Notes under the pieces: generated by a model
What the model saw: only the letters and a program-made list of their open reading frames with translations
What the model was told of the DNA's origin: nothing
Database searches by the model: none
Source of the DNA: Flavivirga sp. 57AJ16
GTDB lineage: Bacteria > Bacteroidota > Bacteroidia > Flavobacteriales > Flavobacteriaceae
Length of the DNA stretch: 64,000 bases
Direction: 5' to 3'
Assembly: GCF_028736925.1 (NCBI RefSeq)
Contig: NZ_JAQZAT010000020.1
Location: forward strand, 1-64,000
Program-made: the position numbers and the translations under genes
In this document: positions 1,268 to 25,149 of the stretch, in pieces
Layout of the letters: each line of letters begins with the position of its first letter
Numbering within the stretch: the first letter of the stretch is position 1

Positions 1268-2110
1268 ATGAATACCAACTATGAAGTACGTTATGCATCT
1301 TCTCCAAACGATGTAAAATCGTATGACACACAAAAGCTAAGAGATCATTTTTTAATAGAAAATTTAATGGAACCCGATGTTGTTAATTTGGTTTACACAC
1401 ATTATGATAGATATATAGCAGGAAGTGCTGTTCCGGTTCAAAAACCATTAATTTTAGAAAGTGTAGATACGTTGAAAGCAAGCTATTTCTTGGAACGTAG
1501 GGAATTAGGTGTTATTAACGTTGGAGGAAAAGGAACGATATCTGTAGATGGTACCGATTATGAGTTGAACCACAAAGAAGCATTGTATATTGGTAAAGGT
1601 CATAAAAGTGTTGTGTTTTCTAGTGACTCTAAAAATGAACCAGCAAAATTCTATTTAAATTCAACACCAGCACATAAAGCTTATCCCAACAAAAAAATAG
1701 GTGTAAATGATGTAGAAACAATTGAATTGGGGACACCAGAAACTGCAAATGCACGTACTTTAAGAAAGTATATTGTAAATAGTGTTGTGGATGTATGCCA
1801 GCTTCAAATGGGAATGACCACATTAAAAGCAGGAAGCTCATGGAATACTATGCCAGCTCACGTACATGACAGACGAATGGAAGTGTATTTTTATTTTGAA
1901 GTACCAGAAGATCAGGCGGTTTGTCACTTTATGGGGCAACCACAGGAAACCAGACATATATGGATGGGGAACAATCAAGCTGTTATTTCACCACCATGGT
2001 CTATTCACTCGGGGTCTGGTACAAGTGGTTATTCTTTTATCTGGGGTATGGCAGGTGAAAATTTAGACTATGGTGACATGGATCATTGTAAAATAAACGA
2101 ATTAAAATAA
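1268..2110 (+). CDS. kduI: 5-dehydro-4-deoxy-D-glucuronate isomerase (KduI)
   Basis: Cytoplasmic isomerase that converts 5-keto-4-deoxyuronate, the rearranged form of the unsaturated uronic acid released from lyase products, to 2,5-diketo-3-deoxygluconate. Length (280 residues) matches the family. The cupin metal site is visible as His198, His200, Glu205 (PAHVHDRRMEVYFYF) and His247 (PPWSIHSG), in the same order and spacing as the zinc ligands of E. coli KduI. It is followed after 17 bases by the next enzyme of the pathway, and together they imply that the lyases and GH88 downstream feed uronate into this route. The start at 1268 is the first ATG and gives the usual N-terminus. High confidence. 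Confidence 0.95.
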   Translation: MNTNYEVRYASSPNDVKSYDTQKLRDHFLIENLMEPDVVNLVYTHYDRYIAGSAVPVQKPLILESVDTLKASYFLERRELGVINVGGKGTISVDGTDYELNHKEALYIGKGHKSVVFSSDSKNEPAKFYLNSTPAHKAYPNKKIGVNDVETIELGTPETANARTLRKYIVNSVVDVCQLQMGMTTLKAGSSWNTMPAHVHDRRMEVYFYFEVPEDQAVCHFMGQPQETRHIWMGNNQAVISPPWSIHSGSGTSGYSFIWGMAGENLDYGDMDHCKINELK

Positions 2111-7600: not shown

Positions 7601-8732
7601 ATTCAATTATGTAAAAATTAAGGTGTCAGATAACGGGAAAGGAATTTCAAAAGCAAATAGGAAATTTATTTTTGATAGATTCTACCAGCTAGGAGAGCGT
7701 TCTGGTACGGGTATAGGTCTAGCTTTAACCAAAAATCTTGTTGAATTACACCAAGGTTTTATTAAAGTTAAAAGTCATGAAAATAAAGGGACTACTTTTA
7801 TTGTGCAATTACCTTTAGGAAAAGAACATTTAAGTAAGGAAGAAATTGTTGATGATACAATAAAATCCGAACAGGATACTTTCTATAATATTGAAAAAGC
7901 TGCTTATGTAGAAAAGGAAATTATTGCTTTAAAAAAGCAAAATAATAATCAAGATATAAGTATTGATAATACTTTACCATCTATTTTAATTGTAGAGGAT
8001 AATGTGGAGGTGAGAACATTTATTACATCAATTTTTAAAGGAAAATATAATGTTTTTGATGCAGAAAATGGTAAAGATGCTATTGAAATAGCTAAATCGC
8101 AGGATATAAACTTAATTATTAGTGATATTATGATGCCAGTAATGGATGGTGTTGAAATGTGTAATGAGTTAAAAACGAATATAAAAACCAGTCATATTCC
8201 TGTAATATTATTAACGGCAAAAACATCTCAAGAAGCCAAAAAAACAGGTTACCAAATAGGCGCAGATGCTTATATAACCAAACCGTTTGATGCTAACATA
8301 TTAGAGATAAGAGTTGTAAATTTATTAAAATCCAGAAAAAGCTTAATTGATAAATTTAAAAAAGAAATCATTCTTCAGCCTAAAGAGCTTACGGTAACTT
8401 CTGCCGATGAAATGTTCTTACAAAAAGCCATAGATATTCTAGAACAAAATTTATCTAACCCAGAGTTTGGAATAGCAAATTTTATAGAAGACATGGGGGC
8501 GAGTCGTTCTGTTTTATACAGAAAATTAAAAGCATTAACTGGTCAGTCTATTTCAGAATTCATAAAAAATATAAAATTAAAAAGAGCTGCACAATTAATA
8601 AAACAAACGGATATGAGCATTTCAGAAATTGCATTCGATTTAGGTTTTAATGACTTAAAGCATTTTAGAAAATCATTCAAAAAAGCATTTAACACCCTCC
8701 CTTCTCAATATAGAGATAGTACTTCCATTTAG
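4623..8732 (+). CDS. Hybrid two-component system sensor/regulator (HTCS)
   Basis: A one-protein regulator of 1369 residues, typical of Bacteroidota PULs. In order: signal peptide (about 1-22); a long periplasmic beta-propeller region of repeated DxxGxLWxGT motifs (about 30-690); a Y_Y_Y-type domain (about 700-785); one membrane segment (about 795-817); histidine kinase with His850 in ISHDFRTPL and ATP-binding motifs DNGKGIS and GTGIGLAL; receiver domain with acidic Glu1125/Asp1126, phospho-acceptor Asp1168 (SDIMMPVMDG) and the later Lys-Pro; and a C-terminal AraC-type helix-turn-helix (about 1265-1365). Such proteins bind an oligosaccharide in the periplasm and switch on the neighbouring susCD genes. 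Here the ligand is likely an unsaturated glycosaminoglycan fragment. It lies alone, 211 bases before susC. Confidence 0.95.
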   Translation: MNFKKYIVLFLFYFVASFVFAQEQENNYEALKFKNLSVKEGLSQSSVLSIIQDKKGFLWFGTRDGLNKYDGNEFKVFRQNPQDSTSLSNNFIKILYEDTKGNLWVGTVDGLNKYQPESDSFKKYFIKGYKNSNESNVIWDIIEDSGGYLWIGTEAGLKKFHIETDSFVELNHASTLLKSPIRSLLIVDKNQLWIKTTDQVGVYNMKTYNVKLSSYKENYLKELIKSSVSVLYQDQKKNIWLGFNSGLAMLNKRNNKFEYFVLKSNEESPITGEVRTIWEDYLGNLWVGTYNGLYILNPDRSRISRFMHDENNSNSLSQNSIYKIYEDIKGDIWIGTYAGGVSYYDRSFDVFKHFPSGTNNTKLNYKVVSSIVEDENNNLWIGTEGGGINFYDSNKGIFKYYTSNSNDSNSLSANNVKAIIQDHAGNFWIGTHDGGLNFLNPNKRPFKFIKYLNNPNRLNSLSNNRVISLFEDCQHNIWIGTSGGGLNVLNNKTKTITPIVDNKNVLGDIVHVITQTSDKNHLLLGGGNGLAKININTNQLDSINYLGTNKTEHNSGVVLSIYEDKNNHLWIGTEGNGLFYYKGESSETTKFNSNNGLPNDVIYGIVPDNNNHIWLSTNNGLSRINLESLKIKNFDESDGLQGNEFNYGAYLKNKKGELLFGGANGFNLFNPSEIIENTFVPPVTITSFNVNNKPYIKITDSTKKIILKHTQNVFNFDFVATSYSQPNKNQYAYKLEGFDKEWNYIGNKKSATYTNLDDGDYVFKVKASNNDGLWNEKGASIPITILPAPWQTWWAYLLYTLLFIGVILIFRKYSLIRIRERNELKQERLEKERIEEVNKLKLELFTNISHDFRTPLTLILGPLERLLKVDNKDNFIKEQHEIMYRNASTLMELINQLLDFRKSESGKLQLCASKKNIVPFVNDIKLAFEGLARSKNIDFTLKASNDVIDVWFDQTKLKKIIFNLLSNAFKFIGEEGEISIDISTEDKLKKEGSFNYVKIKVSDNGKGISKANRKFIFDRFYQLGERSGTGIGLALTKNLVELHQGFIKVKSHENKGTTFIVQLPLGKEHLSKEEIVDDTIKSEQDTFYNIEKAAYVEKEIIALKKQNNNQDISIDNTLPSILIVEDNVEVRTFITSIFKGKYNVFDAENGKDAIEIAKSQDINLIISDIMMPVMDGVEMCNELKTNIKTSHIPVILLTAKTSQEAKKTGYQIGADAYITKPFDANILEIRVVNLLKSRKSLIDKFKKEIILQPKELTVTSADEMFLQKAIDILEQNLSNPEFGIANFIEDMGASRSVLYRKLKALTGQSISEFIKNIKLKRAAQLIKQTDMSISEIAFDLGFNDLKHFRKSFKKAFNTLPSQYRDSTSI

Positions 8733-8973
8733 TAAATATTATATCTTAGTTCTTTATAAAACTTAAAATTTAAACTCAACATAAAACAAAGAAGCTCTTG
8801 TCGTAAATGTTTTTTATACAGGTGTTTACGCTATTCTGTGATTTTAGTTTGTTGGGTTTGTTTTAGGGAATGAACAGCTAACCACTGTTAAAAAAACGTT
8901 CTAGCCCCCTTATTTAGGACTGTTTCAAATTAATTTCGTCATTATGAAAGTGTATAACCTAACTGACAAGAGA

Positions 8974-11900
8974 ATGAAAAATCATTTTAAAAAGAAATTA
9001 ACAAAACCAATGAGACCTATTATCATAGTCATAATGTTTTTTTTTGGAGCACTATTTAGCTTTGCTGGCTATGCTCAAGTAAATACCGTTACTGGGGTAG
9101 TTACAGATGAAGTCGGTTTGCCTCTTCCTGGGGTAAATGTTACAGAAACAGGGACTCTAAATGGAGTTACTACAGATTTTGATGGTGCTTATGCTATGAG
9201 TATAGAACAAGGCGCTTCTTTAAGCTTTAGTTATATTGGTTATAAAACAGTAACCATTGTAATTACAGATCAATCAAAATTAGATATTAATTTAAAACCA
9301 GACCTTCAGAAATTAGATGATATTGTTATTATTGGATATGGAGCTGTTAAGAAAAAAGATTTAACAGGTTCTGTAGCTACAGTAAAAATGGATAGATTAA
9401 CAGAAGCACCTGTAGCAAACTTCGATGAAGCTTTAGCAGGTCGGGTAGCAGGAGTTCAAGTAAGTTCTGGAGATGGAGAACCTGGTAATGGTTTAAACAT
9501 AATTATTAGAGGTGGGAATACAGTGAATGGTGATAACTCTCCTTTATATGTTTTAGATGGTTTTATTATTGAAGATTTCAATCCTGGTATTATAGACCCT
9601 GCAGATATTGAATCTATGAGTGTTCTTAAAGACGCATCGGCAACCGCAATTTACGGGGTTCGAGGTGCAAATGGTGTTGTAATTATTACATCTAAAAGAG
9701 CAAAAACAGGAAAAACAAAAGTTTCTTATGAAGCAAGATTGGATGTAAAAGAGGTAACAAAAAAATTAGATGTTTTAGATCCTTATGAGTTTTTAAAGCT
9801 TTCCTTTGAGATTAATCCAGCAAGTACAACTACAAGATATTTTTCAACTTACGATGAAGGAACCGGACAGAGTGTACAAGTTGGAGATATAGAAGATTAT
9901 CGAAATGTAGAAGGTAGAAACTGGCAAGATGTTGCATTTAGAACAGCTTATTCTAAAACCCACAAACTTAACATATCCAGTGGGGGAGAGCAAACAAGAG
10001 TTAATGCCTCCTTAAATGCCGTGGAAAATCAAGGTTCTTTATTGAATTCAGAATACAATAGAATAAATGGTAGAATAACGTTGAATCAAAAAATTAGTGA
10101 AAAGTTAGACATAACTGCTGATGTTATGTATACCAATTATACTCAAGAAGGTATTAATACTAAAGGAACATCTTCTTACTCTTTTATGAGGAATTTAATC
10201 ACATACAATAATGTGGCTAATATATTTGTTCAATATGAAGATGGATTTAATCCACTGGACCAAGTAAGTGAAGATTACGACTTAATAAACATTGTGAGTT
10301 GGCACCCAATTGTATCCTTGGAAAGTGAATACAGAAAAAGTAAAACAGATCAATTTATTGCAAACTTAAGATTGAATTATGACCTAACTCCGAGTTTAAT
10401 TTTTGAAACTAGAGGAAGTTTTAATAGTCAATTTAGACATACAGGGGTATTTAATAATAGTAATACAGTTTATGGTAGACTTATAAATAAAGTTGATGGT
10501 ATTAATGGTTCTACAGATAATATAAGATGGAATAATTTTTCTACTGTGAATACCTTAAGTTATAAAAAGAGATTTGGTGATCATTCTATAGATGCTGTTT
10601 TTGGAACAACTTTAAATATTAGAAAATACTCTAGATCTTATGCACGTTATATAGATATCCCTCAATATTTAGAAGGTTTAGGCGTAAACTCTATAGATGG
10701 AGGAACCATAGATGGCTCGGGAGATATTTTTGGAGATACTGAAACAAGAATTTTTTCTTTATTAAGTAGGGTTAATTATAATTTTAAGCAAAAGTATTTC
10801 TTTACAGCTTCTATTAGAAGGGATGCATCTTCAATTTTTCCTAAAGAAAATAGAGTTGGATACTTTCCTTCAGCAGCATTATCTTGGAATGCCAATAAAG
10901 AAAGTTTTATTGAAAACTTAGGCGTATTTTCTCAATTAAAATTTAAAGCAGGTTATGGAAAAACAGGAAACGATAGAATTCCAAGTTCTGCTAGATTTGA
11001 TGTTTTAACAGATAGTGATGCCTCTTATTTTATAGAAGGTGATATTATACAAGGGCAACGCCCAACTAGTGCGGGAGCTAATCCTAATTTGTTTTGGGAA
11101 ACCACAGAGCAATACAACGTAGGTGTAGATATGGGCTTTTTTGATGATAGATTATCATTAACTACTGAAGTTTACCAAAAAGACACTAAAGATTTACTTA
11201 TAAATGCCGATGCAGCACCTTCTCAAGGGTTTTCTACTATTTGGATAAACTCTGGGCATGTTAGAAATAAAGGATTAGAGTTTAGTTTAAGCACCTTAAA
11301 TGTGGTTACTAAAAACTTTGAATGGCATACGGATTTTAATATTTCATTTAATCAAAATTCAATTGTATCCTTACCAGAAGGAAAACCGATTTTTGGAACA
11401 CCAAATTATTATTTTCGTTTAAGTACCAATCAATTTATAGTTGAGGAAGGAAAATCTTTGGGAAATATATACGGTTATATTTCTGATGGTGTTTATCAAA
11501 TAGAAGATTTTGAAAATTACAATGCCACAGCATCTACACACACTTTATTAGCAACAGAACCTTATTATAAAAGCCACCAAGCGGGAGATGAAAAGTACAA
11601 GGATTTAAATGGGGACGGACAAATAACAGCAGCCGATAAAACAGTAATTGGTAATGCTATGCCAAAGCATTATGGAGGTTTTGGTAATACATTTAAATAT
11701 AAAAACTTTCAGTTGAGTGCATTTTTTCAATGGTCTTATGGTAACGATATTTTAAATGCAAACAGATTGGTTTTTGAAAGTATGTCTTATGCTGGTCAAA
11801 ATCAATTAGCATCAACACTTGATAGGTGGACGCTGGAAAATCAGGATACAGGTTTACATAGAGCAGGAGGTCAGGGTTTTGAAGATGTTTCTTCTAGAGT

Positions 11901-12153
11901 TGTTGAAGATGGATCCTACCTAAGATTAAAAACGGTTAATTTCTCTTATAATTTTTCTGAGGATGTTTTAGATAAACTTAGTTTAACAAATTTTGAGTTA
12001 TATCTGGCAGCACAAAATCTTTTTACATGGACTAATTACAGTGGTTTTGATCCAGATGTTTCTGTTGCAAGTTCTTTAATAACTCCGGGTATAGATTACT
12101 CTGCCTATCCAAAACAAAAAATATTAAGCCTTGGTTTAAAAGTTTCATTTTAA
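8974..12153 (+). CDS. SusC-family TonB-dependent outer-membrane transporter
   Basis: Outer-membrane importer for oligosaccharides, energised by TonB. After the signal peptide (FGALFSFAGYAQ) there is a carboxypeptidase-like regulatory domain (VTGVVTDEVGLPLPGVNV), then the plug with IRGGNTVNGDNSPLYVLDG and SVLKDASATAIYGVRGANG, then a long beta-barrel ending in aromatic Phe (LGLKVSF). About 1060 residues, a normal length. An upstream in-frame ATG at 8944 would add ten polar residues; I prefer 8974 because it puts the basic N-region directly before the hydrophobic core, though the signal is rather long either way. SusD follows after 10 bases. Expected to be induced by the HTCS upstream. Confidence 0.95.
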   Translation: MKNHFKKKLTKPMRPIIIVIMFFFGALFSFAGYAQVNTVTGVVTDEVGLPLPGVNVTETGTLNGVTTDFDGAYAMSIEQGASLSFSYIGYKTVTIVITDQSKLDINLKPDLQKLDDIVIIGYGAVKKKDLTGSVATVKMDRLTEAPVANFDEALAGRVAGVQVSSGDGEPGNGLNIIIRGGNTVNGDNSPLYVLDGFIIEDFNPGIIDPADIESMSVLKDASATAIYGVRGANGVVIITSKRAKTGKTKVSYEARLDVKEVTKKLDVLDPYEFLKLSFEINPASTTTRYFSTYDEGTGQSVQVGDIEDYRNVEGRNWQDVAFRTAYSKTHKLNISSGGEQTRVNASLNAVENQGSLLNSEYNRINGRITLNQKISEKLDITADVMYTNYTQEGINTKGTSSYSFMRNLITYNNVANIFVQYEDGFNPLDQVSEDYDLINIVSWHPIVSLESEYRKSKTDQFIANLRLNYDLTPSLIFETRGSFNSQFRHTGVFNNSNTVYGRLINKVDGINGSTDNIRWNNFSTVNTLSYKKRFGDHSIDAVFGTTLNIRKYSRSYARYIDIPQYLEGLGVNSIDGGTIDGSGDIFGDTETRIFSLLSRVNYNFKQKYFFTASIRRDASSIFPKENRVGYFPSAALSWNANKESFIENLGVFSQLKFKAGYGKTGNDRIPSSARFDVLTDSDASYFIEGDIIQGQRPTSAGANPNLFWETTEQYNVGVDMGFFDDRLSLTTEVYQKDTKDLLINADAAPSQGFSTIWINSGHVRNKGLEFSLSTLNVVTKNFEWHTDFNISFNQNSIVSLPEGKPIFGTPNYYFRLSTNQFIVEEGKSLGNIYGYISDGVYQIEDFENYNATASTHTLLATEPYYKSHQAGDEKYKDLNGDGQITAADKTVIGNAMPKHYGGFGNTFKYKNFQLSAFFQWSYGNDILNANRLVFESMSYAGQNQLASTLDRWTLENQDTGLHRAGGQGFEDVSSRVVEDGSYLRLKTVNFSYNFSEDVLDKLSLTNFELYLAAQNLFTWTNYSGFDPDVSVASSLITPGIDYSAYPKQKILSLGLKVSF

Positions 12154-12163
12154 AAATAAAATC

Positions 12164-13801
12164 ATGAAAATAAAAATAATATTAGTAGCCGTTTTTTCAG
12201 CTTTGATATTTCAGAGTTGCGACAATCAATTAGAAATATCACAAAATGATAATATTACTGCCGATAACTTGTACAACACGGAATCTGGTGCTTTGGCCGG
12301 ATTAGTTGGAGCATACAGTAGAATTGTATCTGTTTATAGAACAGCTATAATCAATGCACAATATCCAACAGATTGGACGGATGAGGGGCATTATAATAGA
12401 AAAGGGTTAAGAGATATCCGTAAAAATAATTTTACAACATCAGAGCCTACGTTACTTTCAATTTGGAGCACGTATTATGAAGGCGTTGCGGCAACAAATA
12501 GCTTGTTAATTGGTTTAGATAATTCAACTTTAAGTGAAGATATAAAGCTAAAATATATCGCAGAAGGTCGTTTTTTAAGAGCATTCTTTTATTTTGATAT
12601 TCAAAAAGCATTTGGAGGTGTTGAAGGAATCCCAATGCCTTTAGAAGAAACCAACAAACAGTTATTGCCTAGAACGCCAGGTATAGATGTTTTTAAACAA
12701 ATTATTGCCGATTTAGAATTTGCAGAACAGTACTTACCTACAGATTCGGAAGCAGAATTAGGTAGAGCAGGTAAGGGGATAGCACGTGGTTTATTAGCAA
12801 AAGCATATTTATATATGGCAAGTAATCCGTTTAATGAAGCTGGTGCTTACGAAAAATCTATAGCGTGGAGTAAAACCATTATGGACGATCCTTTTTATGA
12901 ATTAAACCCTAGTTATGGCGATGTGTTCGACCAATTAGCTATGGGAAATTATGAAAAAAAGGAAATGATTTTTCAAATTGGTTTTTCTTTTGACAATTTA
13001 GATATTTACCAATCATCAAAATTAGGATCGGAATTTGGCATGAAAATAGACGATGAAATTTGCGGCGGAAAAGGCTTTGCACTTACCTATGCTACTATTT
13101 CATTAATCTTAAAATACAGGTCGGACCCTATGGACGAAAGAGGTTTTTGGAATACAAATCCATATTATAACAAAAGACTTGATAATTGTGGACTAAGTAC
13201 AATTAATAATCAATTTACTATTCCTGCATCAAAATACCGTAGATTTTTAGAGCCCAATAATACCAATACAAGTTATGGCTCGCACCATTGGCCTATTTTA
13301 CGTTTTTCCGATGTATTGTTAATGTATGCAGAGGCTGTTAACAAAATAACACCTGGTTCTAATTTAGCTTTAAATGCTGTAAATCGCGTTAGAAATAGAG
13401 CCAATGCAACACCTTTAACAGCAATTACAGATGAATTGATTCAAGAAGAGCGATTATTAGAGCTATGTTTTGAAGGACAACGTAAATTCGATTTAGTACG
13501 TTGGGGAATTCTTGAAGAAAAAGTTAACGAAACAAAATCTATCATGGAAACTTTAGGAGCAAATCCAGCTTTTGAAAATCAAGATTGGACCTCTTATGGA
13601 GAACCCAATTTAGGAAATGATGGTATTCCCGAAAGTGGTGATGAGCCAATAGTAAGAGACATAAAATACAATTTTTTTAATGGGTCTTTTGACTATTTTG
13701 ATGGGTATAATGATTTTGACCCTAGTAAACACTATATACTACCTATTCCAGAACAAGAGTTGGGTGTAAATACAAACTTAAAACAAACGACAGGTTGGTA
13801 A
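12164..13801 (+). CDS. SusD-family surface glycan-binding lipoprotein
   Basis: RagB/SusD-type outer-membrane lipoprotein of 545 residues that forms the lid of the preceding SusC channel. It has a lipoprotein signal (FSALIFQSC), the N-terminal SusD motif region (NLYNTESGALAGLVGAYSRI), a conserved RFLRAFFYFDIQKAFGG helix, and the C-terminal family end (EERLLELCFEGQRKFDLVRW and the final YILPIPEQELGVN). It begins 10 bases after susC and is surely in the same transcript. Its ligand is inferred from the PL8/GH88 neighbours. Confidence 0.94.
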   Translation: MKIKIILVAVFSALIFQSCDNQLEISQNDNITADNLYNTESGALAGLVGAYSRIVSVYRTAIINAQYPTDWTDEGHYNRKGLRDIRKNNFTTSEPTLLSIWSTYYEGVAATNSLLIGLDNSTLSEDIKLKYIAEGRFLRAFFYFDIQKAFGGVEGIPMPLEETNKQLLPRTPGIDVFKQIIADLEFAEQYLPTDSEAELGRAGKGIARGLLAKAYLYMASNPFNEAGAYEKSIAWSKTIMDDPFYELNPSYGDVFDQLAMGNYEKKEMIFQIGFSFDNLDIYQSSKLGSEFGMKIDDEICGGKGFALTYATISLILKYRSDPMDERGFWNTNPYYNKRLDNCGLSTINNQFTIPASKYRRFLEPNNTNTSYGSHHWPILRFSDVLLMYAEAVNKITPGSNLALNAVNRVRNRANATPLTAITDELIQEERLLELCFEGQRKFDLVRWGILEEKVNETKSIMETLGANPAFENQDWTSYGEPNLGNDGIPESGDEPIVRDIKYNFFNGSFDYFDGYNDFDPSKHYILPIPEQELGVNTNLKQTTGW

Positions 13802-13828: not shown

Positions 13829-14767
13829 ATGAAAAAAACAATATATGTAATATCAGGTTTATTGCTTTTGATTCTTTTGGTCGAAAGTTGCGAAGATTTG
13901 CAAGAAGTTGAAACTCCCCAATACGAAGTGGCTTTTAGTACCACAGCAAAAGTTGGAGAACCAATAGAGTTTATGGTTGAAAATGCTCCTAATTTCTTAA
14001 GTTTTTATTCAGGTGAATTTGGTCATGAATATAAAAATAGAACAAGAACAAATGCTGAGGGCATAATTAATATGTCTTTTGATAGTTCCCAGAATTGGCA
14101 AAATGGAATTAGTAGATCGACCCAATCGCTTTCCGTTCAAGTATCTTCAGATTATGATGGTACAGGAACTCCCGAAGCTATTGCAAATGCCACTTGGACA
14201 GATATTTCAGATCGATTTACATTAGCTACAGACAGAACTTATGATTACACTAATTCTGGAATTGCAGATATTACCGATTTAGCGGCAGATGGAAAACCTG
14301 TTTTTATAGCTTTTAAAATTTATGCTATCGGTAAAGTCTCCGAAGGTAATAGACAAGGTGAATATCGTTTAGATAATTTTAATATTGAATTAGCTGTAAG
14401 TGGCGAATCTTATTCTTTGCCAAAAGCAGATATGACAACTCCTGGCTTTAACATGGTAAATGTAGCAGGATTTAACGATAATACGGTTTTCGATCATTGG
14501 GTGCTTTGGGATAATGATTTTTATAGAATTAAAGGGGAACAAGCTGATTACACCAATGAAGATTGGTTAATTACAGAGCCAATAAACCTTACTGGTGTCA
14601 CTCCAGATATAGGAATTTCTTTAAAAACATATTCAGCACAACTAGAGACTTTTAGGCATACCTATACAGAAGCTGGTACTTATACAGTAACTTTTGTTGG
14701 TAGTAATGAAACCATTTACGGTAAAAAGAGCGATGTTAAAGAATTCACCATAACTGTAACCGATTAA
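13829..14767 (+). CDS. Surface lipoprotein, likely glycan-binding (SGBP), PKD-like C-terminus
   Basis: A 312-residue lipoprotein (LLLILLVESC, Cys near residue 21), placed third after SusC and SusD with a 27-base gap, the usual slot of a surface glycan-binding protein. The N-terminal half (residues about 25-120, AKVGEPIEFMVENAPNFLSF) resembles DUF5017-type domains found in flavobacterial PULs. The C-terminal stretch (FRHTYTEAGTYTVTFVGSN) has the strand pattern of a PKD domain. No enzyme motif is seen. Glycan binding is an inference from position and architecture. A hairpin follows at 14805-14848. Confidence 0.7.
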   Translation: MKKTIYVISGLLLLILLVESCEDLQEVETPQYEVAFSTTAKVGEPIEFMVENAPNFLSFYSGEFGHEYKNRTRTNAEGIINMSFDSSQNWQNGISRSTQSLSVQVSSDYDGTGTPEAIANATWTDISDRFTLATDRTYDYTNSGIADITDLAADGKPVFIAFKIYAIGKVSEGNRQGEYRLDNFNIELAVSGESYSLPKADMTTPGFNMVNVAGFNDNTVFDHWVLWDNDFYRIKGEQADYTNEDWLITEPINLTGVTPDIGISLKTYSAQLETFRHTYTEAGTYTVTFVGSNETIYGKKSDVKEFTITVTD

Positions 14768-15027: not shown

Positions 15028-18000
15028 ATGAAAAATTTATACGTCTTAGTTCTCCTTTTTTTATTGGTGGTTAATACTGTATTTTCTCAGGTAAACATTT
15101 CTTCTGGTGTGTGGGAGCCTATTGGAGACGTCGTTTTAAGTAATGTTAATGACGATGACCATAATGGAGATGGTCTTGGAGATGGAGCTTTACTTGTAGA
15201 CGGCCAATCGGCGGTTGTGGGCCAAGGAGTTGCATATACATTGGGAGGGCGTATGGAGTTAAGTGAATCTATAAACATTAGTACCTACACTTATAATCGA
15301 AATAGTTCTTTTGTAAGTTTTAAAATTGAATTATATAATAAAACGGATAATGCTGTAATTGGAAATTCATCTATAGTTGAACATTATGGAAATGATGCGA
15401 CACCAGTAAATACACTTCTATATTATACTGCAGCAAGCAGTGATGAAGGTGATGAATTACAAATACGATATATTAGAACCGATAACGGACATATAGCAAG
15501 AGACTTTGCTATTGATAATTTAACATTTACAACACCTTTAGTAATAGCATCTTGCCCTTTTACCGTTATTCCGGATTTGGATCTAGAACCATCAAATGGA
15601 GGAATTGAAGCAGAAATAGCAGGGGCAGTTGATAAGTTTTCCGATGCTTATTTAGGAACCAGTTTTAGTGGTGCTCTAACCGCTGCAAATGCTTCATATA
15701 ATGCTTTAGGGATTACGGTTAATTCTGGAGTCATCTCATCTACAACTCCAATTACAAACTTTAATCAAGTAGATTTTCTTAAAAAATATGCTGAATATTT
15801 AAAGTTTAACCCTACTGATACTGACATTAAGGAAAAAGCAAATAATATTGTTTGGCTTACATCTCAATATTTTTGTAATGGAACTTTAGCTTTGGATAGC
15901 CAGTTGTATGATTATCAAAAATTTGCAAGACCAGCATCCTTGTTAAAAGACTTTTTAGAACCTGGTGTTCAAGATTTATTTGCCTATACATTATATAAAC
16001 ATTCAGTTCAATTTGAACATTTTTGGGAACCAAGTTATGATGTTGCTTATCAAGAAAACTTTGGAGCAATCAATACCGATGTTATTTATAATATTTCCGA
16101 TGTTATGTTAGCTTATAGTTTATGGCACAACACAGCCGATGAACGTTACAGATATATGCGTGGATTCAAACGTTATTTAAATCGATTTTTTTCTTATACC
16201 GCTGGCACAACCGATGGTATAAAGCCTGATGGAACAGGTTTTCATCATTGGACGGCATATAATAATTACATGTATTCTTATAATACGGCTGCTAGTTTAT
16301 TATCTTATTTAAGTGGAACAGGTTTTCAAGTAGATCAAGTTAATTACATGGTGTTTCGTAATGCGTTTTATACACAGTATATGCAGGCAAATGACGCAGG
16401 AGTACAGGCATTATGTACCGCAGGTAGAAATCCTCAAAATAGAATGAGGCCATTAACGCAATCTGCACTTAAAACATTAGCGATCGCAGGAGGTGGTATC
16501 CTTGGTTTATCCACAGCCGATCCTGTTTTAGCTGGATTGTACAACAGGGTTTATGGTGTGGATATGGACTTTAATTACAATACGGTCACACCTTTTTCTG
16601 AAGGTTTTTTTCAGTTTAATCATGCCTCGGCTAGTGTTTTTAGAAAGGATAATTGGTTGGTATTTAATAAAGGTTTCTCTAGTAATATGTGGGGTAGTGA
16701 AATATATGTACAACAGAATAGATACGGTAGATATCAAGGTTATGGTGCTCAGGAAATTATCTATCCAGGTAATATGGAAATAGGAAATGGTTATGATGTA
16801 AATACTTGGGATTGGAATTTCAACCCTGGTACAACCGTAATTAAGAAGTCATGGGAGGATTTGCATGCAGAACGTGGACGTATTGATGAGTTACAACAAA
16901 AACGCTTTGTAGGTTCCCTGAATTTTAAGAACAATAATAGCGAGTTACTAACCAATAATCATGGTCTGTATGGCATGTTTGCTATGGATTTTCAAGAGAA
17001 AGAAAATCAAGGGTTTGGAGAGACGCATCATTCCGAAAATCATAACAACTCATTTACTTTTAAAAAATCTAATTTTTATTTTGATGATATTATAGTTTGT
17101 CTTGGTTCAGGAATTAGTAATAATGATACATCCAATGAAACCATTACGACTTTGTTTCAAAGATTGGATAATACGGGGAGTGATGTAAATGTAAATGGAA
17201 CAAGCCAATCGGGAATGGGCATAATGTCGTATAACAGTGGTTCAGCAAATTGGTTACTCAGTAATTACGGTACAGGGTTTTATTTTATTTCAGGTAATGA
17301 TGAACTTGTGGTTAAAAAGGAAGTGCAGCAAAACCCTAATCAAAATCAAATATGGCCAGTCGATTTTAGTGGTAATCCAGTTGATACATATTGTATTGGA
17401 TATTTAAATCATGGTAGCAGTCCATCAGACGCTAGTTATGAGTATATTTTAATGCCTGATAGTAATATTTCAGAAATGCAGTTATTGGATACGGCCATAC
17501 AAAATACAAATAAACCTTATACGGTATATCAACAAGATAATAATGCCCATATTGTGGAGCAAATTTCAAAAAAGCTATGGGGTTATGCTTTTTTTAATGG
17601 CGTATCTGGGTTGGCATATGACAAAGTAACTGGTGTTGATGCCTCTTGTTTAGTAATGACTGCTTATGATGAAGTTGAAAAGGAGTTGCGTGTTTCTATA
17701 GATTATCCGGATTTAGGTTTTGAGAGTAGGTCTTATACTTCGTCAATAGAAGTAAAAAGACAGCTTACGCTTCTAGGAGAATGGGCTTTAAGCAGTACGT
17801 ATTCAGGTGTAGAAATAGTATCTACCAACAGTACTCAAACTGTCATTGAATTTACATTAGTTAATGGATTAACTAAAGAGGTATTACTAAAAGAAGTTGG
17901 CTTGTTAAGTAATAGGGATTTTGAAAAAGCACCAATTGCAATTTATCCAAACCCGACTAATAATTTATTGAATATAGCTGTTTCAAGTTCAGATATTCAA

Positions 18001-18159
18001 ATCAAAAATATAGATATTATCGATATTTCAGGAAAAACTATTTATACCCAAAAAAGTGCAAAACCAATTTATGTAAATCATTTTGCAAAAGGATTTTATA
18101 TTTTAAATATAGAAATGATTAATGGGATAGTAGTCAACAAAAAAATTGTTATAAACTAA
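15028..18159 (+). CDS. PL8 polysaccharide lyase with N-terminal Asp-rich module and T9SS tag
   Basis: Secreted lyase of 1043 residues. Layout: signal peptide (1-20); an Asp-rich beta-module (about 25-167) that is repeated twice in the next gene; the PL8 alpha-toroid and beta-sandwich parts (about 190-960); and a type A T9SS sorting domain (from IAIYPNPTNN to the C-terminus). The catalytic tetrad known from Proteus chondroitin ABC lyase (His501, Tyr508, Arg560, Glu653) is matched by His407, Tyr414, Arg467 and Glu558, the last beside the NRYGRY motif. It should cleave chondroitin or hyaluronan by beta-elimination outside the cell or at its surface. The segment FHHWTAYNNY differs from the second PL8 lyase, so the two may have different preferences. 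Confidence 0.9.
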   Translation: MKNLYVLVLLFLLVVNTVFSQVNISSGVWEPIGDVVLSNVNDDDHNGDGLGDGALLVDGQSAVVGQGVAYTLGGRMELSESINISTYTYNRNSSFVSFKIELYNKTDNAVIGNSSIVEHYGNDATPVNTLLYYTAASSDEGDELQIRYIRTDNGHIARDFAIDNLTFTTPLVIASCPFTVIPDLDLEPSNGGIEAEIAGAVDKFSDAYLGTSFSGALTAANASYNALGITVNSGVISSTTPITNFNQVDFLKKYAEYLKFNPTDTDIKEKANNIVWLTSQYFCNGTLALDSQLYDYQKFARPASLLKDFLEPGVQDLFAYTLYKHSVQFEHFWEPSYDVAYQENFGAINTDVIYNISDVMLAYSLWHNTADERYRYMRGFKRYLNRFFSYTAGTTDGIKPDGTGFHHWTAYNNYMYSYNTAASLLSYLSGTGFQVDQVNYMVFRNAFYTQYMQANDAGVQALCTAGRNPQNRMRPLTQSALKTLAIAGGGILGLSTADPVLAGLYNRVYGVDMDFNYNTVTPFSEGFFQFNHASASVFRKDNWLVFNKGFSSNMWGSEIYVQQNRYGRYQGYGAQEIIYPGNMEIGNGYDVNTWDWNFNPGTTVIKKSWEDLHAERGRIDELQQKRFVGSLNFKNNNSELLTNNHGLYGMFAMDFQEKENQGFGETHHSENHNNSFTFKKSNFYFDDIIVCLGSGISNNDTSNETITTLFQRLDNTGSDVNVNGTSQSGMGIMSYNSGSANWLLSNYGTGFYFISGNDELVVKKEVQQNPNQNQIWPVDFSGNPVDTYCIGYLNHGSSPSDASYEYILMPDSNISEMQLLDTAIQNTNKPYTVYQQDNNAHIVEQISKKLWGYAFFNGVSGLAYDKVTGVDASCLVMTAYDEVEKELRVSIDYPDLGFESRSYTSSIEVKRQLTLLGEWALSSTYSGVEIVSTNSTQTVIEFTLVNGLTKEVLLKEVGLLSNRDFEKAPIAIYPNPTNNLLNIAVSSSDIQIKNIDIIDISGKTIYTQKSAKPIYVNHFAKGFYILNIEMINGIVVNKKIVIN

Positions 18160-18336
18160 TTTGATTATAATTAAGATAAGGATTAATGTCTCTTGCATAG
18201 CCTAGTGTAAAGCATGTTTCTGAACAGTTAGACCTTGTTCTAAGAACAGCTACCACCTCTTTATTTATTTGATTGACGTGTATTTTTACAACAAACAAAT
18301 AATAAAATATATCCTTTTAATCTTAAATTGAAAATC

Positions 18337-19623
18337 ATGAAAAAAATTACTTTATTAATGCTGCTTACACTGGCAGGGATTTCAATAATGAAAGCACAAG
18401 TTATTGCAACCGGTGCGTATAGTTCTGATGCAACTGTAACTATAACCGATGTTACAAATGATGAAGATAATGGTGATGGAGCTAATGATGGGGCTAAGTT
18501 TATGGATGGGTCTGACGGAAGCTCAGTAAATGAAACTGCGTATTTTACTTTTGATGGAACCATGGAGAATGGCATGGCATATGAGGTAAGTACAACGGTA
18601 TATAATGTTAATACTTCTTATTGTGACTTAACGGTATCTTTGTATAACAAAACGGATGGTACTGAATTAGCGACAGCAAATGCTGGTGTACAGCCATTTG
18701 AACACGCAGGGGGAGATGATATTAAAGCTGTTACATTAAATTATACAGCTGTAGCTTCTGATGAGGGAGATGTTTTAGAGGTAAGGTATGTGAAAATTCA
18801 AGCTGGCGCTTATCGTAATTATGCTGTAGATATTTTGGAGCTTGGAGGAGTTGCTGTGGGACCTACAGTACCTACAACTTCAATGTCTCCAGAAGGCGTA
18901 TGGTCACCGATTAAGACAACAATTTTAACAAATACTACAGATGATGCTGATAATGGGGATGGTGTTGCCGATGGCGCTATTTATGTAGATGGGCAAGATG
19001 AAGGTGGTACTATGGCTGATAATATTGGACAAGGAGTTGCTTTTACTTTTGATGAAACAATGGAAGCGGGAGATGTCTATAATGTTGTTACAAATATTTA
19101 TAACTCCGGTGCCTCTTATTGTATAGTTACTGTGTATCTGTACAATGTAACAGATGGTACTCAATTAACAACACCTCCTAACACAGGTCTTGCTGGTGGT
19201 GGTACAGTAGCAGAAGTCACAGTAAATTATACGGCTGTTTCAACAGATGCTGGTGATGTGTTAGAATTGAGATACGTAAAAAATCAGGATGGAAACCTTT
19301 CGCGTAATTTTTCAATAGATAATGCAAAAATCAATAGTGTTGCGATATCGACGGATTTAGCGGCGCTATCTCTAGAAAACAGTGTATTGAATGCAAGTGT
19401 TTCTGTATATCCAAATCCTACAAATAGCATACTAAATATTAATAAAACCAATACAGATATTAATATTAAAAGAGCAGATCTTTTTGATGTTACAGGAAAA
19501 ATAATTTATAGTCAATCAAATAATCAAACTATCAACGTATCTAACTTTTCAAAAGGGTTATATGTATTAAAAATTGAATCTCAAGATGGAGGTATTGCAA
19601 CAAGAAAAATTGTTGTAAAATAA
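18337..19623 (+). CDS. T9SS-secreted protein made of two copies of an Asp-rich module
   Basis: Secreted protein of 428 residues: signal peptide ending in KAQ (about 1-20), two homologous modules of about 135 residues (about 20-150 and 165-305), and a type A sorting domain (VSVYPNPTNSILN to the end). The modules share DNGDGxxDGAxxxDG near the start, SLYNKTDGT/YLYNVTDGT in the middle and SDEGDVLEVRYVK near the end, and match the N-terminal module of the preceding PL8 lyase (DHNGDGLGDGALLVDGQ; SDEGDELQIRYIR). It has no catalytic domain. It probably binds the same glycan as the lyase or holds it near the surface. I use the ATG at 18337; a TTG nine bases earlier is less likely. Confidence 0.85.
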   Translation: MKKITLLMLLTLAGISIMKAQVIATGAYSSDATVTITDVTNDEDNGDGANDGAKFMDGSDGSSVNETAYFTFDGTMENGMAYEVSTTVYNVNTSYCDLTVSLYNKTDGTELATANAGVQPFEHAGGDDIKAVTLNYTAVASDEGDVLEVRYVKIQAGAYRNYAVDILELGGVAVGPTVPTTSMSPEGVWSPIKTTILTNTTDDADNGDGVADGAIYVDGQDEGGTMADNIGQGVAFTFDETMEAGDVYNVVTNIYNSGASYCIVTVYLYNVTDGTQLTTPPNTGLAGGGTVAEVTVNYTAVSTDAGDVLELRYVKNQDGNLSRNFSIDNAKINSVAISTDLAALSLENSVLNASVSVYPNPTNSILNINKTNTDINIKRADLFDVTGKIIYSQSNNQTINVSNFSKGLYVLKIESQDGGIATRKIVVK

Positions 19624-19654
19624 TTTTATTATTTACAAACTCATCAAGATTAAT

Positions 19655-19793
19655 AAAAGAGGGTGTCTAAAAAGTAAGTTCGATGTCATATTGAGCTTGT
19701 CGAAATATTTTTAACTTACTGATAATCAATATCAGTTTCGACAGGCTCAACCTGACAAATCAAATTATAAAGACTTTTTAGACACCCTCTTTT
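19655..19793. repeat. Nested palindromic element with perfect 20-bp ends
   Basis: AAAAGAGGGTGTCTAAAAAG at 19655-19674 is repeated as an exact inverted copy at 19774-19793. Inside, ATTGAGCTTGTCGAAA and TTTCGACAGGCTCAAC form a second, imperfect inverted pair. The 139-base unit would fold into one long hairpin, followed by TTTTTG, so it can terminate transcription after the T9SS gene. The sequence style (GACAGGCTCAACCTGACA) is that of dispersed flavobacterial repeats. Confidence 0.75.
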
Positions 19794-20666: not shown

Positions 20667-21932
20667 ATGAAAAATCATTTAAATGTAATCCATAGCGCTC
20701 ATTTTGTTATTAAAAATCTTTCTTTAATAGGTCTTTTAATTTGTACTTTTAGTTGTAAAGAACCTAAAAAAGAGTTAGTCGCAGAAGTTGTAACGAATAA
20801 TAAGGTAAGTATTGATTTAGAAAAACAAATTGATGATTGTGAGTTCCAATTGGAAATTACAGTTCCTAAATTAACAGATTTAACAAAGCACCCGCGTTTA
20901 ATCGAAACCAATGAAACAACATGGGAACAAGTAGACAATGATGAACTTATATGGACATCTGGTTTTTACCCAGGTATTTTATGGTATGCTTATAATATTA
21001 CAGGAAATAAAAAATGGAAAGATGAAGCTATAAAACGTACAGAGGTTTTTGAAGATTATAAAAATATTAAAGTACATCATGATATTGGTTTTATGATGTT
21101 TCCTGCTTATGGCAATGGTTTTATAATAGGAGATAAAAAGGAATATAAAGATATTTTAATAACGTCTGCAAATTCTTTAGCTACACGTTTTAACCCTAAT
21201 GTTGGTACTATTAAATCATGGTCTAACAAAATGCATCCACGTTGGAAACAGCATATTACCATTATTGATAATATGCTAAATTTGGAATTGTTGTTTTGGG
21301 CAGCAAAAAACGGAGGTGATAAAAAGCTATATGATATTGCTGTAAAACATGCCGAAACAACCATGAAAAATCATTTCAGAACAGATTGCACATCATGGCA
21401 CGTTTTAGAATACGATTCTATATCGGGAGCAGTTTTAAACAGACACACTAAACAAGGTTATGCAGATGATAGCAGATGGTCTAGAGGGCAAGCTTGGGGT
21501 GTTTATGGTTATACCATGGTTTATAAAGAAACAAAAGATAAAAAGTTTTTGGATTTTGCTCAAAAACTTACTAATAAGTATTTATCGCTTTTACCTGAAG
21601 ATATGGTGCCTTGTTGGGATTTTGATGTAGCAAACAATCCAAAAGAAGAAAAAGACGCTTCGGCTGCTGCTATAGTTGCATCTGCTTTAATAGATTTAGG
21701 CACATTTGTAGAAAAGAAAGAAGATCAAGAACGTTATTATAATGCGGCTTTGAAAATATTGAAATCTTTGGGGTCTGATAAATACTCTGGTGTGGGTAAA
21801 ACCGATTCTTTTTTATTGCATTCTACTGGAGCTAAATCTTTAGGTTGGGAAATAGATGTTGCCTTGATCTATGCCGATTATTATTATATTGAAGCGTTAT
21901 CAAGATTAAAAACATTGCAAGAACAAAAATAA
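20667..21932 (+). CDS. GH88 unsaturated glucuronyl hydrolase, lipoprotein
   Basis: Periplasmic or membrane-anchored enzyme of 421 residues that removes the 4,5-unsaturated glucuronic acid from lyase products by hydrating the double bond. A lipoprotein signal ends at Cys30 (LLICTFSC). The GH88 alpha/alpha-barrel signature is clear: WTSGFYPGILWYAY, HHDIGFMMF with Asp139, and IDNMLNLELLFWA with Asp201; these two aspartates correspond in order and spacing (62 residues) to Asp88 and Asp149 of the Bacillus enzyme. Further conserved segments are YADDSRWSRGQAWGVYGY and DASAAAIVASAL. It lies between the two PL8 genes and links them to KduI and KduD. Confidence 0.94.
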   Translation: MKNHLNVIHSAHFVIKNLSLIGLLICTFSCKEPKKELVAEVVTNNKVSIDLEKQIDDCEFQLEITVPKLTDLTKHPRLIETNETTWEQVDNDELIWTSGFYPGILWYAYNITGNKKWKDEAIKRTEVFEDYKNIKVHHDIGFMMFPAYGNGFIIGDKKEYKDILITSANSLATRFNPNVGTIKSWSNKMHPRWKQHITIIDNMLNLELLFWAAKNGGDKKLYDIAVKHAETTMKNHFRTDCTSWHVLEYDSISGAVLNRHTKQGYADDSRWSRGQAWGVYGYTMVYKETKDKKFLDFAQKLTNKYLSLLPEDMVPCWDFDVANNPKEEKDASAAAIVASALIDLGTFVEKKEDQERYYNAALKILKSLGSDKYSGVGKTDSFLLHSTGAKSLGWEIDVALIYADYYYIEALSRLKTLQEQK

Positions 21933-22074: not shown

Positions 22075-25000
22075 ATGAAAAGAATTATATGTTTTTCAAA
22101 TAACATGAAAAGCCTCCTTTTTTTAACTGGGGCATTAATAAACATAAGTTGTTATTCGCAACAAGATTATAATCCAGCTATAGAATCATTCGAGTCTCAA
22201 AAAGCTTTAGATTTTTATGAATCAGAGAATAGTAAGCTATCTATAAGCGATTCTCACAATAGATATGGTAAATCATCATTGCTTTGGGAATGGTATGGAG
22301 AAAGTGATTTTTCAACATCTAATTTTAAAATATTATCATTAAAAGAGAGTCCGTTGGCTTATGGGGATCATTTCCCCGCAAGCCCAACGCTTCAAATGTC
22401 TATTTATAATGAAGAAGCTCAAGATGAAAAAATAACAATTTCTTACTATAAAAACGGAAATAAAGAAGTTTGGTTTGATGTTGATCTATCTTTTACAGGA
22501 TGGAGGCGAATTTGGGTGCCATTTTATGAAATGCAAGGTAATGCACCATTAAAAGGAGCCGCAATTGATTTTGACAATTTTAAAATAAGCACAAGTTCCG
22601 CTAAAGGAAAATTATTTTTTGATGATATTATTTTTTCTCAATATCAAGATGATAGATTTCAGTATCCAGATGAAATGGTACCATTTATAAAGGCAGACAC
22701 CAATTTAGGATCCGATCACTGGATGCCTTTGATTAGTAATTATGATAATATTAAAAAATTAGAGCCAGCGCCAATTTCTATGGCTATACGATTAGACTTG
22801 AAGAAGTTTGAAAAATTAATAGATCAAAGTTTAGTGGTAGATAAAAAATATAAGGTCTATATAAATACGCTGCGAGATTTATATCAAAACTTAAATATTA
22901 AAGAAAAAGGAAATACAGTAGTAGGACCACCATTAACATTTAAGGAATTCGAAGAGTATTATGATAAAAATCAACAAGGGCCAAACAATTTTAACGATGT
23001 AAAAGACTTAGGTCGGGTTTTAAAACAATTATCCAATTTTCACAATAGAGCAAACCCTGAGGAGCAAGAGGAAATTAAAGCTATGTTTTTAACAGGAACA
23101 AAGTATTTCCTAGATCAAGGTTGGCAAGCAGGTTCTAGTGGAGGAACTAGACACCATATAGGTTACAATGTTAGAGAAATTACAGAAGCGTTTTTTACAA
23201 TGCGTCAATTATTGTACGATAATGGATTATTAAACGAAGTAGGGGCAAGCTTACATTGGTTGTTTAATTTAGGAATGCTCTTAAACGATGAAAGTACATT
23301 TCATGTTAATATAGATTATTTAAATACCCAATCGTATTATCATTTAATGCTCATTTTTATGTTTGAAAAACAAGAAAAACAAGCAGCGATGTTAAGTGCA
23401 TATTCAAAATATATGTCTATTATTTTAGCACAGGAGAAAGAAGCAGGGGGCTTTAAAGTTGATGGAACCGCCTGGCACCATAATGGTCATTATCCTGCTT
23501 ATGGAATTGGAGCATTTAATAATGTTCCTAAAGTTATTAATACTTTAGCTAGAACTCGTTTTAGAATTAAAACCGAAGGACACAAAAACTTTAAAAAAGC
23601 CTTTTTAGCATCAAGAATTTATAGTCAAATGTACAATTGGGGTTTTGGTAACGGAGGCCGTCATCCATTAGAAGATAATGGGATTCAAAACATGAAACAA
23701 AGGTTTTTATGGATGGCAAATGCAGGAGATCCAACAGGTAAAACTAAAATAGATAAAGAATTTGCAGCTGCATATTTAAGACTTTGGGGCAATGAGGATA
23801 TTTTTAATTCAACTTTATTTACAAAAATGAATGGAATACATAAAGAAAAATTGTCCGGTTATTATACTTTCCCTTACGCAGCTACTGGTGTTTATAGGCG
23901 CAATAATTGGGCTGCTTTTATAAAAGGCTATAGTAAGTATGTTTGGGCTTCAGAAATTTATGTAAACGAAAATAGATATGGTAGATACCCTGCCAATGGA
24001 ACAATACAATTATTGAATGAAAACGGGGAAAAAGGAAGTGGTTTTCAACAGGAAGGTTGGGACTGGAATCGTTATCCTGGAGCAACTGTAGTTTATTTAC
24101 CTTTAAAGGAATTAGAACCAAAAATACCTTTATTGATGTTTCGTTCAGAAGAGTCTTTTGCAGGAATAGCAAAATTAGGAGATAATGGTGTTTTCGGAAT
24201 GATTTTAAATGAAAGCAAAGGTTCTAATGGTGATGGTAGAGAAGTGAATATTGGTTTTCCTGGCAAATTATATGCAAAAAAATCAGTTTTTTCTTTTGAT
24301 GGTAAACTAGTTTGTATTGGTACTAATATTTCTAGTGTTGATGAGGAAAATCTAACACAAACCAATTTGTTTCAAAACTATTTAACAGATATTAAAACAC
24401 CATTATATACGGTATCGGAAACTATAAAAGAGTTTCCTTATAAAACCGAACTCAAACAAGATTCAAAAACGGGTGTTTGGTTAACAGATGCTTACGGGAA
24501 TGGATATCATGTGCTTTCTAATACACCTGTACAAATTCAACTGGAAAAACAGCATTCATATCATAATAAATATTCAATTAATACAGGCTCCATGAATCCT
24601 AAAGGAAATGGGGTTAAAGAGACCGAAGGTAATTATGCTACCGCATGGATAGATCATGGGTTAGCTCCAAAAAACGCATCGTATCAATATGTTATTTATC
24701 CTTTTTTAGATGAAGATTCCCAAAAGAATTTTGGGAAAATAGTAGAAAAAGATCGGTCTTTCAAAATAGAACGTGCCGATAGTATTGCCCATATTGTTTT
24801 AGATAAAAAAACGAATACAACAAGTTATGTTGTTTTTGAGAAGGAACAAAGCTTAGAGTATGGTTTGCTGGAAACCGTATCGGAACCTGCTTTGGTTATG
24901 GTTAAACAAAACTCGGCAAAAGCCTTGACCATAAGTGCCGTACAACCAGATTTAAATTTTCCTATGGATAATAAAGAGCAATTTAAAAATTACAGTATGC

Positions 25001-25149
25001 CTGTAGAGCTTAAAATAACCTTAAAAGGAAAATGGACAGCTTACCCTGCCGATTATATTAAAAGTCTAGATAATTCTGGAGTACATACTATAATTTCACT
25101 GGAATGTGTTAATGGGGCTACTAGAACTATTAATGTGAATAAATTATAA
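22075..25149 (+). CDS. PL8 chondroitin ABC lyase-like enzyme
   Basis: A 1024-residue exported lyase with the full chondroitin sulfate ABC lyase architecture: N-terminal jelly-roll domain (about 35-205, NPAIESFESQKALDFYE), alpha-helical toroid (about 215-590), and C-terminal beta-sandwiches. The tetrad is His469, Tyr476 (DGTAWHHNGHYPAYG), Arg529 (GGRHPL) and Glu627 (SEIYVNENRYGRY), and GWDWNRYPGATVVYLP is also conserved. The spacing of these residues follows the Proteus enzyme closely. The N-terminus (GALINISC) may be a lipoprotein signal, and the start could also be the ATG at 22102. It has no T9SS tag, unlike the other PL8, so it probably works in the periplasm or anchored in a membrane. It ends the PUL. 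Confidence 0.92.
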   Translation: MKRIICFSNNMKSLLFLTGALINISCYSQQDYNPAIESFESQKALDFYESENSKLSISDSHNRYGKSSLLWEWYGESDFSTSNFKILSLKESPLAYGDHFPASPTLQMSIYNEEAQDEKITISYYKNGNKEVWFDVDLSFTGWRRIWVPFYEMQGNAPLKGAAIDFDNFKISTSSAKGKLFFDDIIFSQYQDDRFQYPDEMVPFIKADTNLGSDHWMPLISNYDNIKKLEPAPISMAIRLDLKKFEKLIDQSLVVDKKYKVYINTLRDLYQNLNIKEKGNTVVGPPLTFKEFEEYYDKNQQGPNNFNDVKDLGRVLKQLSNFHNRANPEEQEEIKAMFLTGTKYFLDQGWQAGSSGGTRHHIGYNVREITEAFFTMRQLLYDNGLLNEVGASLHWLFNLGMLLNDESTFHVNIDYLNTQSYYHLMLIFMFEKQEKQAAMLSAYSKYMSIILAQEKEAGGFKVDGTAWHHNGHYPAYGIGAFNNVPKVINTLARTRFRIKTEGHKNFKKAFLASRIYSQMYNWGFGNGGRHPLEDNGIQNMKQRFLWMANAGDPTGKTKIDKEFAAAYLRLWGNEDIFNSTLFTKMNGIHKEKLSGYYTFPYAATGVYRRNNWAAFIKGYSKYVWASEIYVNENRYGRYPANGTIQLLNENGEKGSGFQQEGWDWNRYPGATVVYLPLKELEPKIPLLMFRSEESFAGIAKLGDNGVFGMILNESKGSNGDGREVNIGFPGKLYAKKSVFSFDGKLVCIGTNISSVDEENLTQTNLFQNYLTDIKTPLYTVSETIKEFPYKTELKQDSKTGVWLTDAYGNGYHVLSNTPVQIQLEKQHSYHNKYSINTGSMNPKGNGVKETEGNYATAWIDHGLAPKNASYQYVIYPFLDEDSQKNFGKIVEKDRSFKIERADSIAHIVLDKKTNTTSYVVFEKEQSLEYGLLETVSEPALVMVKQNSAKALTISAVQPDLNFPMDNKEQFKNYSMPVELKITLKGKWTAYPADYIKSLDNSGVHTIISLECVNGATRTINVNKL

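Follow-up and report, generated by a model that had tools for sequence, protein, structure and literature searches.

What is the role of an aspartate-rich domain that is shared by a polysaccharide-degrading lyase and by the non-catalytic protein encoded next to it? This question is raised by a window of 64,000 nucleotides (the whole stretch of DNA analyzed here; positions 1 to 64,000 of contig NZ_JAQZAT010000020.1, assembly GCF_028736925.1) from Flavivirga sp. 57AJ16, a member of the Flavobacteriaceae. In this window, a lyase of polysaccharide lyase family 8 (PL8) and an adjoining secreted protein together carry three copies of the domain, termed module in the following. We consider it likely that the repeated domain serves as an accessory module of carbohydrate-binding type for the glycosaminoglycan (GAG) of its locus, occurring in a lyase-fused form and in a two-module surface form. 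In the best reading, the module is an unlabelled branch of the beta-sandwich carbohydrate-binding modules (CBMs). All features of the window given below lie on the + strand.

Three copies of one module

The PL8 lyase gene (15028..18159) encodes 1043 amino acids, comprising a signal-peptide-like start, the module copy M1, the catalytic and super-sandwich domains and a tail of the type IX secretion system (T9SS). Pfam matches of the lyase were Lyase_8 (1e-28), Lyase_catalyt (5.5e-21) and Por_Secre_tail (3.4e-10), with Lyase_8 and Lyase_catalyt over the cut-off. In the alignment with chondroitin ABC lyase I, H407, Y414 and R467 of the Flavivirga lyase fall on H501, Y508 and R560, the catalytic residues of that enzyme. 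The neighboring gene (18337..19623) encodes, from the ATG at 18337, a stand-alone protein of 428 amino acids with its T9SS tail at 19405-19617. M1 covers 15088..15543 in the N-terminal part of the lyase (residues 21-172), while the first half of the stand-alone protein is formed by M2 (18397..18858, residues 21-174) and the second half by M3 (18889..19350, residues 185-338). The initial annotation regarded the 18337 protein as two modules plus a T9SS tag. Indeed, a signal-peptide-like start, a module, a second module and a Por_Secre_tail domain (residues 357-427) were seen in this order. The T9SS sorting domain scored 40.5 bits in the lyase and 54.6 bits in the 18337 protein (cut-off 27), and these tails suggest that both proteins are secreted and displayed at the cell surface.

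Full-length alignments revealed 53/140 identical positions for M1 and M2, 56/137 for M1 and M3 and 73/144 for M2 and M3, corresponding to pairwise identities of 38-51%. Smith-Waterman scores were 232, 269 and 335, respectively, whereas the best of 500 shuffles per pair reached 77, 65 and 82. The real scores thus reach 3-4 times the best shuffle, and a chance likeness of Asp-rich stretches was rejected. At the sequence level, this confirms M1, M2 and M3 as copies of one domain, as the initial annotation had claimed for these two adjoining proteins. A profile built from the three copies found no fourth copy in the Flavivirga genome at E ≤ 1. The module had been described as about 135 residues long, whereas it measured about 150. 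The proposed shared order of motifs is kept; however, the lyase copy fits the quoted motifs only loosely and reads HNGDGLGDGALLVDG, ELYNKTDNA and SDEGDELQIRYIR. The Asp-rich loop extends from D23 to A34 in M1 (15154..15189), where it may form a Ca2+ site, and was placed by alignment at 18460..18495 in M2 and at 18943..18978 in M3.

Distribution and relation to the PL8 lyases

With Flavivirga itself counted, profile searches were positive for 2 of 60 relatives, 5 of 397 family genomes and 1 of 395 genomes sampled across the phylum, the last being Flavivirga's own. The module was thus present in few sampled genomes and is therefore rare. A scan of named genomes was carried out with one peptide pattern, NGDGx[GNA]DGA, drawn from an alignment of 11 modules. 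The scan gave at least 25 loci, and because it relied on a single pattern, the module family is undercounted. The loci were chosen by a motif inside the module and not by their gene context. Among the matches listed, to which all following counts of module proteins and modules refer, every locus bears a Bacteroidota name. Labels on the tree include Flavobacteriaceae, Prolixibacteraceae, Cyclobacteriaceae, Spirosomataceae, Chitinophagaceae and Flectobacillaceae. In total, 28 module proteins with 47 module hits (1-3 per protein) were listed. The alignment used below (A4, 49 rows) contains 46 of the 47 hits and the three window copies; a partial second module of L026:9914 was omitted.

PL8 lyases account for 23 of the 28 proteins, 22 by Pfam (Lyase_8 and Lyase_catalyt) and one by eye, and a Por_Secre_tail was detected in 26 of the 28. 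One protein (L019:9902-11016) ends at a contig edge, and its sequence after the module looks, by eye, like the beginning of a PL8 catalytic part; together with L019:6635-9766 it forms a tandem of two module-bearing PL8 genes. The remaining five proteins (L017, L020, L026, L018 and L022) are non-lyase, stand-alone proteins. A stand-alone protein built from the module, as proposed initially for the window, is therefore a recurring form. Those of L017, L020 and L026 consist of two modules and a T9SS tail, and that of L022 of LamG, module and T9SS tail. L018:9911-11461 has 516 residues, with a single module (29-177) followed by a long C-terminal region, and a T9SS tail was not found; CBM_4_9 over the module was the sole Pfam family at E 0.1. 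In the L022 locus of Aestuariivivens insulae, two adjoining, similar-looking proteins are encoded (7905-9038 and 9212-10714), the second being the LamG-module protein. The first, in which no module hit was obtained, resembles LamG by eye, and the pair suggests an exchange of binding domains within the locus.

A PL8 gene lies near all five stand-alone proteins, in four cases within the fetched locus and for L022 at a distance of about 15 kb on its contig. Genes for SusC, SusD, DUF5017, module-bearing PL8, stand-alone module protein and glycoside hydrolase family 88 (GH88) follow each other in this order also in the Polaribacter and Lutibacter loci (L020, L026) and, judged by eye, in G003. In the Wenyingzhuangia locus (L017), the stand-alone protein is present and the fetched stretch contains no module-bearing PL8; the stand-alone form may therefore serve apart from the fused form.

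The relation of module and lyase was examined in a survey of PL8 genes with a profile of the catalytic part (397 family genomes, E ≤ 1e-30). PL8 matches were present in 22 of the 397 genomes, including all five module genomes. The survey yielded 36 PL8 places, of which 30 had loci that were read, and the PL8 region was recovered in 30/30. At E 1e-3, the module was detected in four of these 30 places (L045-L048) and in none of the other 26. Six places scored above 800 bits, namely L045-L048 and the module-less L049 and L050. A first PL8 tree, with loci all chosen through the module, comprised 24 rows with the module and 13 without, separated by one change. In a second tree of 46 rows, nine of the 26 module-less PL8 places, all from other genomes, were added. 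Here, L049 and L050 branched within the module-bearing clade (starred support), and the clean split was gone. The module label on this tree requires three changes, which may represent a single gain and two losses. In L049 the N-terminus is formed by an unrelated stretch, and in L050 the catalytic part directly follows the signal peptide. More distant module-less PL8s (L051, L054-L056) start, by eye, with a Lyase_N-like region. Because L049 and L050 are nested among module-bearing lyases, the module is accessory to the lyase and lies outside the catalytic unit. Like CBMs in general, it forms a separate domain without catalytic function that is part of a carbohydrate-active enzyme or adjoins one.

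Predicted fold, conserved residues and candidate ligand

AlphaFold2 modeling on the 49 aligned modules gave a beta-sandwich with a mean predicted local distance difference test score (pLDDT) of 90.1 and a predicted template modeling score (pTM) of 0.86. Apart from the last residues, the model was weakest at positions 21-30, the Asp-rich loop. After its first two rows, Foldseek listed CBM16, an evolved CBM4-2, HpiC1-type cyclases, CBM22 and CBM35, with PDB entry 4d0q at rank 45. A second aligner placed CBM22-1 at the top (Z 13.3, 136 residues, 2.8 A), tied with CBM4-2 and HpiC1-type proteins, and its top matches ranged from Z 13.3 to 13.0 over 135-141 residues. We are confident that the predicted fold is a beta-sandwich (beta-jelly-roll) of the CBM4/16/22 type.

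At the level of sequence families, none of the described CBM families gave a strong match. The best was CBM_4_9 (PF02018, cut-off 25.9 bits), which was exceeded by one of 28 proteins (30.5 bits; next 24.6). CBM_4_9 matched 2 of 28 proteins at 1e-3 and 8 of 49 modules at E ≤ 1. All three window copies stayed under the cut-off, the 18337 protein scoring 17.7 bits to CBM_4_9 and the 15028 lyase matching no CBM family. A CBM60 match was rejected (1 of 28 proteins, 21.3 bits, cut-off 28.2), as were NCBIfam matches, each seen in 1 of 11 modules. Matches to 4HBT_2, Scm3 and Big_5, none of them present in more than 2 of 49 modules, were dismissed as scattered and weak (4HBT_2 in the 18337 protein: 23.3 bits, cut-off 25.5). 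HpiC1-like Pfam matches (3 of 49 modules, best 1e-5) were set aside; they fit the shared fold. Lyase_N (PF09092) was found in 0 of 28 module proteins at 1e-3, and a divergent Lyase_N was rejected by an hhalign probability of 0.3% against 8 Lyase_N-region rows. Likewise, kinship with the neighboring DUF5017 protein was rejected, with no detectable relation. The 49-row profile matched no PDB sequence of CBM type at E ≤ 10, multicystatin alone being listed; a Complex I subunit and multicystatin were rejected as PDB sequence relatives (E 0.75, 1 and 0.085).

The profile result also bears on the possibility that the module belongs to the described chondroitin-sulfate-binding family CBM100. The founder of CBM100 was crystallized and comes from a PL29 lyase. 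The beta-sandwich and the chondroitin sulfate ligand given for CBM100 in a reference title and a table row fit the fold and the expected ligand of the module. However, no CBM-type PDB chain was matched by the profile, a result for which the place of the founder in that PDB set is unverified. CBM100 is also absent from the 50 rows listed of the structural comparisons, an absence that carries no weight. We regard membership in CBM100 as improbable.

Ten residues were invariant in 49/49 modules (D23, N26, D28, G29, D32, G33, A34, R127, R138 and D143), and W9 (47/49) and R130 (44/49) were nearly so. The invariance of the loop is partly imposed, because the loop motif belonged to the search pattern; R127, R138 and D143 lie outside this pattern. 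The Asp-rich loop is a plausible Ca2+ site, judged from its sequence. It is rather unlikely, in our estimate, that the module represents a new CBM family whose members recognize GAG uronates via calcium, with the Ca2+ loop and R127/R138 binding glucuronate and possibly unsaturated uronate ends. A precedent for Ca2+-mediated uronate recognition is provided by CBM35. If true, the tandem T9SS protein would retain the products of the lyases at the cell surface, from where they could be imported, and an acidic protein binding a polyanion via Ca2+ bridging would represent a second way of GAG binding, unlike the basic groove of CBM70.

Several results weigh against a GAG-binding module. The fold is shared with HpiC1-type cyclases, which to our knowledge are not sugar binders, and the two best Foldseek rows were a GH51 arabinofuranosidase and a phage tailspike; a shared fold alone is no proof of function. 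The majority of modules have no Pfam match over the cut-off. The main difficulty, however, is charge: the modules are strongly acidic (mean pI 4.29, mean net charge -10), the window copies carrying net charges of -14 to -19, which speaks against a basic GAG groove. In CBM70, the electrostatics of the binding site complement the acidic ligand, according to PMC4175358.

These observations lend some weight to a structural role, in which a Ca2+-loaded beta-sandwich would stabilize the secreted protein, space it from the surface or aid its folding, and would bind no sugar. The acidic, Asp-rich nature of the module, its strongly conserved loop and a fold shared with proteins not known to bind sugar are in line with such a role. 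Moreover, PMC13027841 describes an N-terminal module of another marine PL8 lyase that affects neither hyaluronan binding nor activity; that module is annotated Alginate_lyase there and differs from the present one. Proteins that combine two modules with a T9SS tail recur, though, and such an architecture would be hard to understand for a mere spacer. In addition, two PL8s of the module-bearing clade lack the module, and the module is tightly tied to PL8 genes. Taken together, we think a purely structural role possible but unlikely.

The initial proposal of an uncharacterized carbohydrate-binding module for GAGs holds with regard to the binding-type module, which is supported by the predicted fold, the tie to PL8 and the dispensability of the module; for the ligand, it is solely the gene context that points to a GAG (hyaluronan or chondroitin). 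The module might instead bind a ligand that is not the substrate, such as an algal or host glycan or a surface polysaccharide of the cell itself, and act as an anchor. The ligand is not readable from the fold, and in one member the partner of the module is a LamG domain and not a lyase. Against this stands the finding that each of the 28 proteins either is a PL8 lyase or has a PL8 gene nearby, and an anchor of this kind appears quite improbable. With the module as an accessory binder of the GAG, M1 at the N-terminus of the lyase would keep the enzyme on its substrate. The 18337 protein, with two binding sites and a T9SS tail, would be a surface-displayed capture protein which holds polymer and fragments close to both the lyases and the SusC/SusD importer. 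The Asp-rich loop probably holds a structural or ligand-bridging Ca2+, and the invariant R127 and R138 may contact uronate carboxylate or sulfate groups.

The locus and known GAG-binding systems

The two module genes lie within a set of genes that fits GAG utilization in its content. Upstream, a KduI-type isomerase of unsaturated uronate catabolism (1268..2110; PF04962, 2.6e-31), a hybrid two-component regulator (4623..8732), a SusC-type TonB-dependent receptor (8944..12153) and a SusD-type protein (12164..13801) are encoded. A DUF5017 protein (13829..14767; PF16409, 7.9e-37) lies between the SusD and PL8 genes. Relatives of it adjoin SusD also in L017, L020, L022 and L026, and it may be a further surface glycan-binding protein. 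Downstream follow a GH88-type unsaturated glucuronyl hydrolase (20667..21932), with PDB 3wiw as best PDB match (E 3.2e-90) and no Pfam family at 1e-5, and a second PL8 lyase, which has Lyase_N and lacks the module (22075..25149; PF09092, 3e-29; PF09093, 7.4e-75). A short-chain dehydrogenase is also part of the locus. None of the 12 sulfatase matches of the genome is on the contig of the window, while at the G003 locus a sulfatase match lies between the GH88-like gene and the next PL8. This hints weakly at hyaluronan or unsulfated chondroitin as the substrate; the hint is weak because the window begins at a contig end.

Downstream of the stand-alone gene and before the GH88 gene, interspersed repeats occur at 19649-19804 and 19910-20525. 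The first is a palindromic element of about 150 bases with at least 14 other copies in the genome (80-99% identity), and the second a larger nest of inverted repeats (arms of 47, 25 and 23 bases), pieces of which occur elsewhere in the genome. At least 117 matches were obtained, from 40 scored of 375 first-look candidates. The repeats resemble miniature inverted-repeat transposable elements (MITE) or repetitive extragenic palindromic (REP) elements. No RNA element beside the stand-alone gene was matched in Rfam at gathering scores in 18100-20700. Further downstream, 25362-45912 resembles an alpha-glucan utilization locus, mostly judged by eye, the SusE match alone having been tested. By eye, it contains SusC-, SusD- and SusE-like genes, a GH13-like amylase, a LacI-type regulator, a transporter, and phosphomutase-like and hydrolase-like genes.

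No published description of the module was found in the literature searched, with most subscription journals outside its coverage. Structurally, CBM4, CBM16 and CBM22 (the CBM_4_9 group) are the top matches (Z ~13), together with HpiC1-type proteins. The known members of these families bind mostly neutral, plant-type glycans. Lyase_N (PF09092) occupies the same N-terminal place on PL8 lyases, for example on the second PL8 of the window, but shows no profile similarity to the module. The 18337 protein, encoded beside SusC/SusD genes, is comparable to surface glycan-binding proteins of Bacteroidota such as the bimodular CHU_1279 (PMC12016534), which is likewise non-catalytic and made of two modules. 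In contrast to this type, it has a T9SS tail, and its modules are, as far as can be told, of a different family.

Few binding modules specific for GAGs are known. A 2024 review (PMC11669647) files hyaluronan-specific modules, present only in PL8 enzymes, under CBM70, and CBM100 is listed for chondroitin sulfate; the likeness of the present module to CBM100 is one of description. A further compact family, often in tandem and naturally stand-alone, would aid the annotation of GAG-degrading loci in Bacteroidota, could serve as a hyaluronan or chondroitin probe and shows a possible pairing of lyase-bound and free surface copies of one binder. The closest functional parallel is CBM70, a beta-sandwich module at the N-terminus of the Streptococcus pneumoniae PL8 lyase (4d0q; Foldseek E 6.4e-5, TM 0.54/0.51). 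As stated in PMC4175358, CBM70 is hyaluronan-specific and depends on two groove arginines, the mutations R112A and R145A abolishing hyaluronan binding; the present module has the invariant R127, R138 and D143. No sequence match to CBM70 was found in the PDB profile search. The same text places CBM70 mainly in streptococci, whereas the present module has so far been found in Bacteroidota, and unlike CBM70 it is acidic, Asp-rich, often tandem and also stand-alone. By analogy, it would work on its lyases as CBM70 does on the pneumococcal enzyme.

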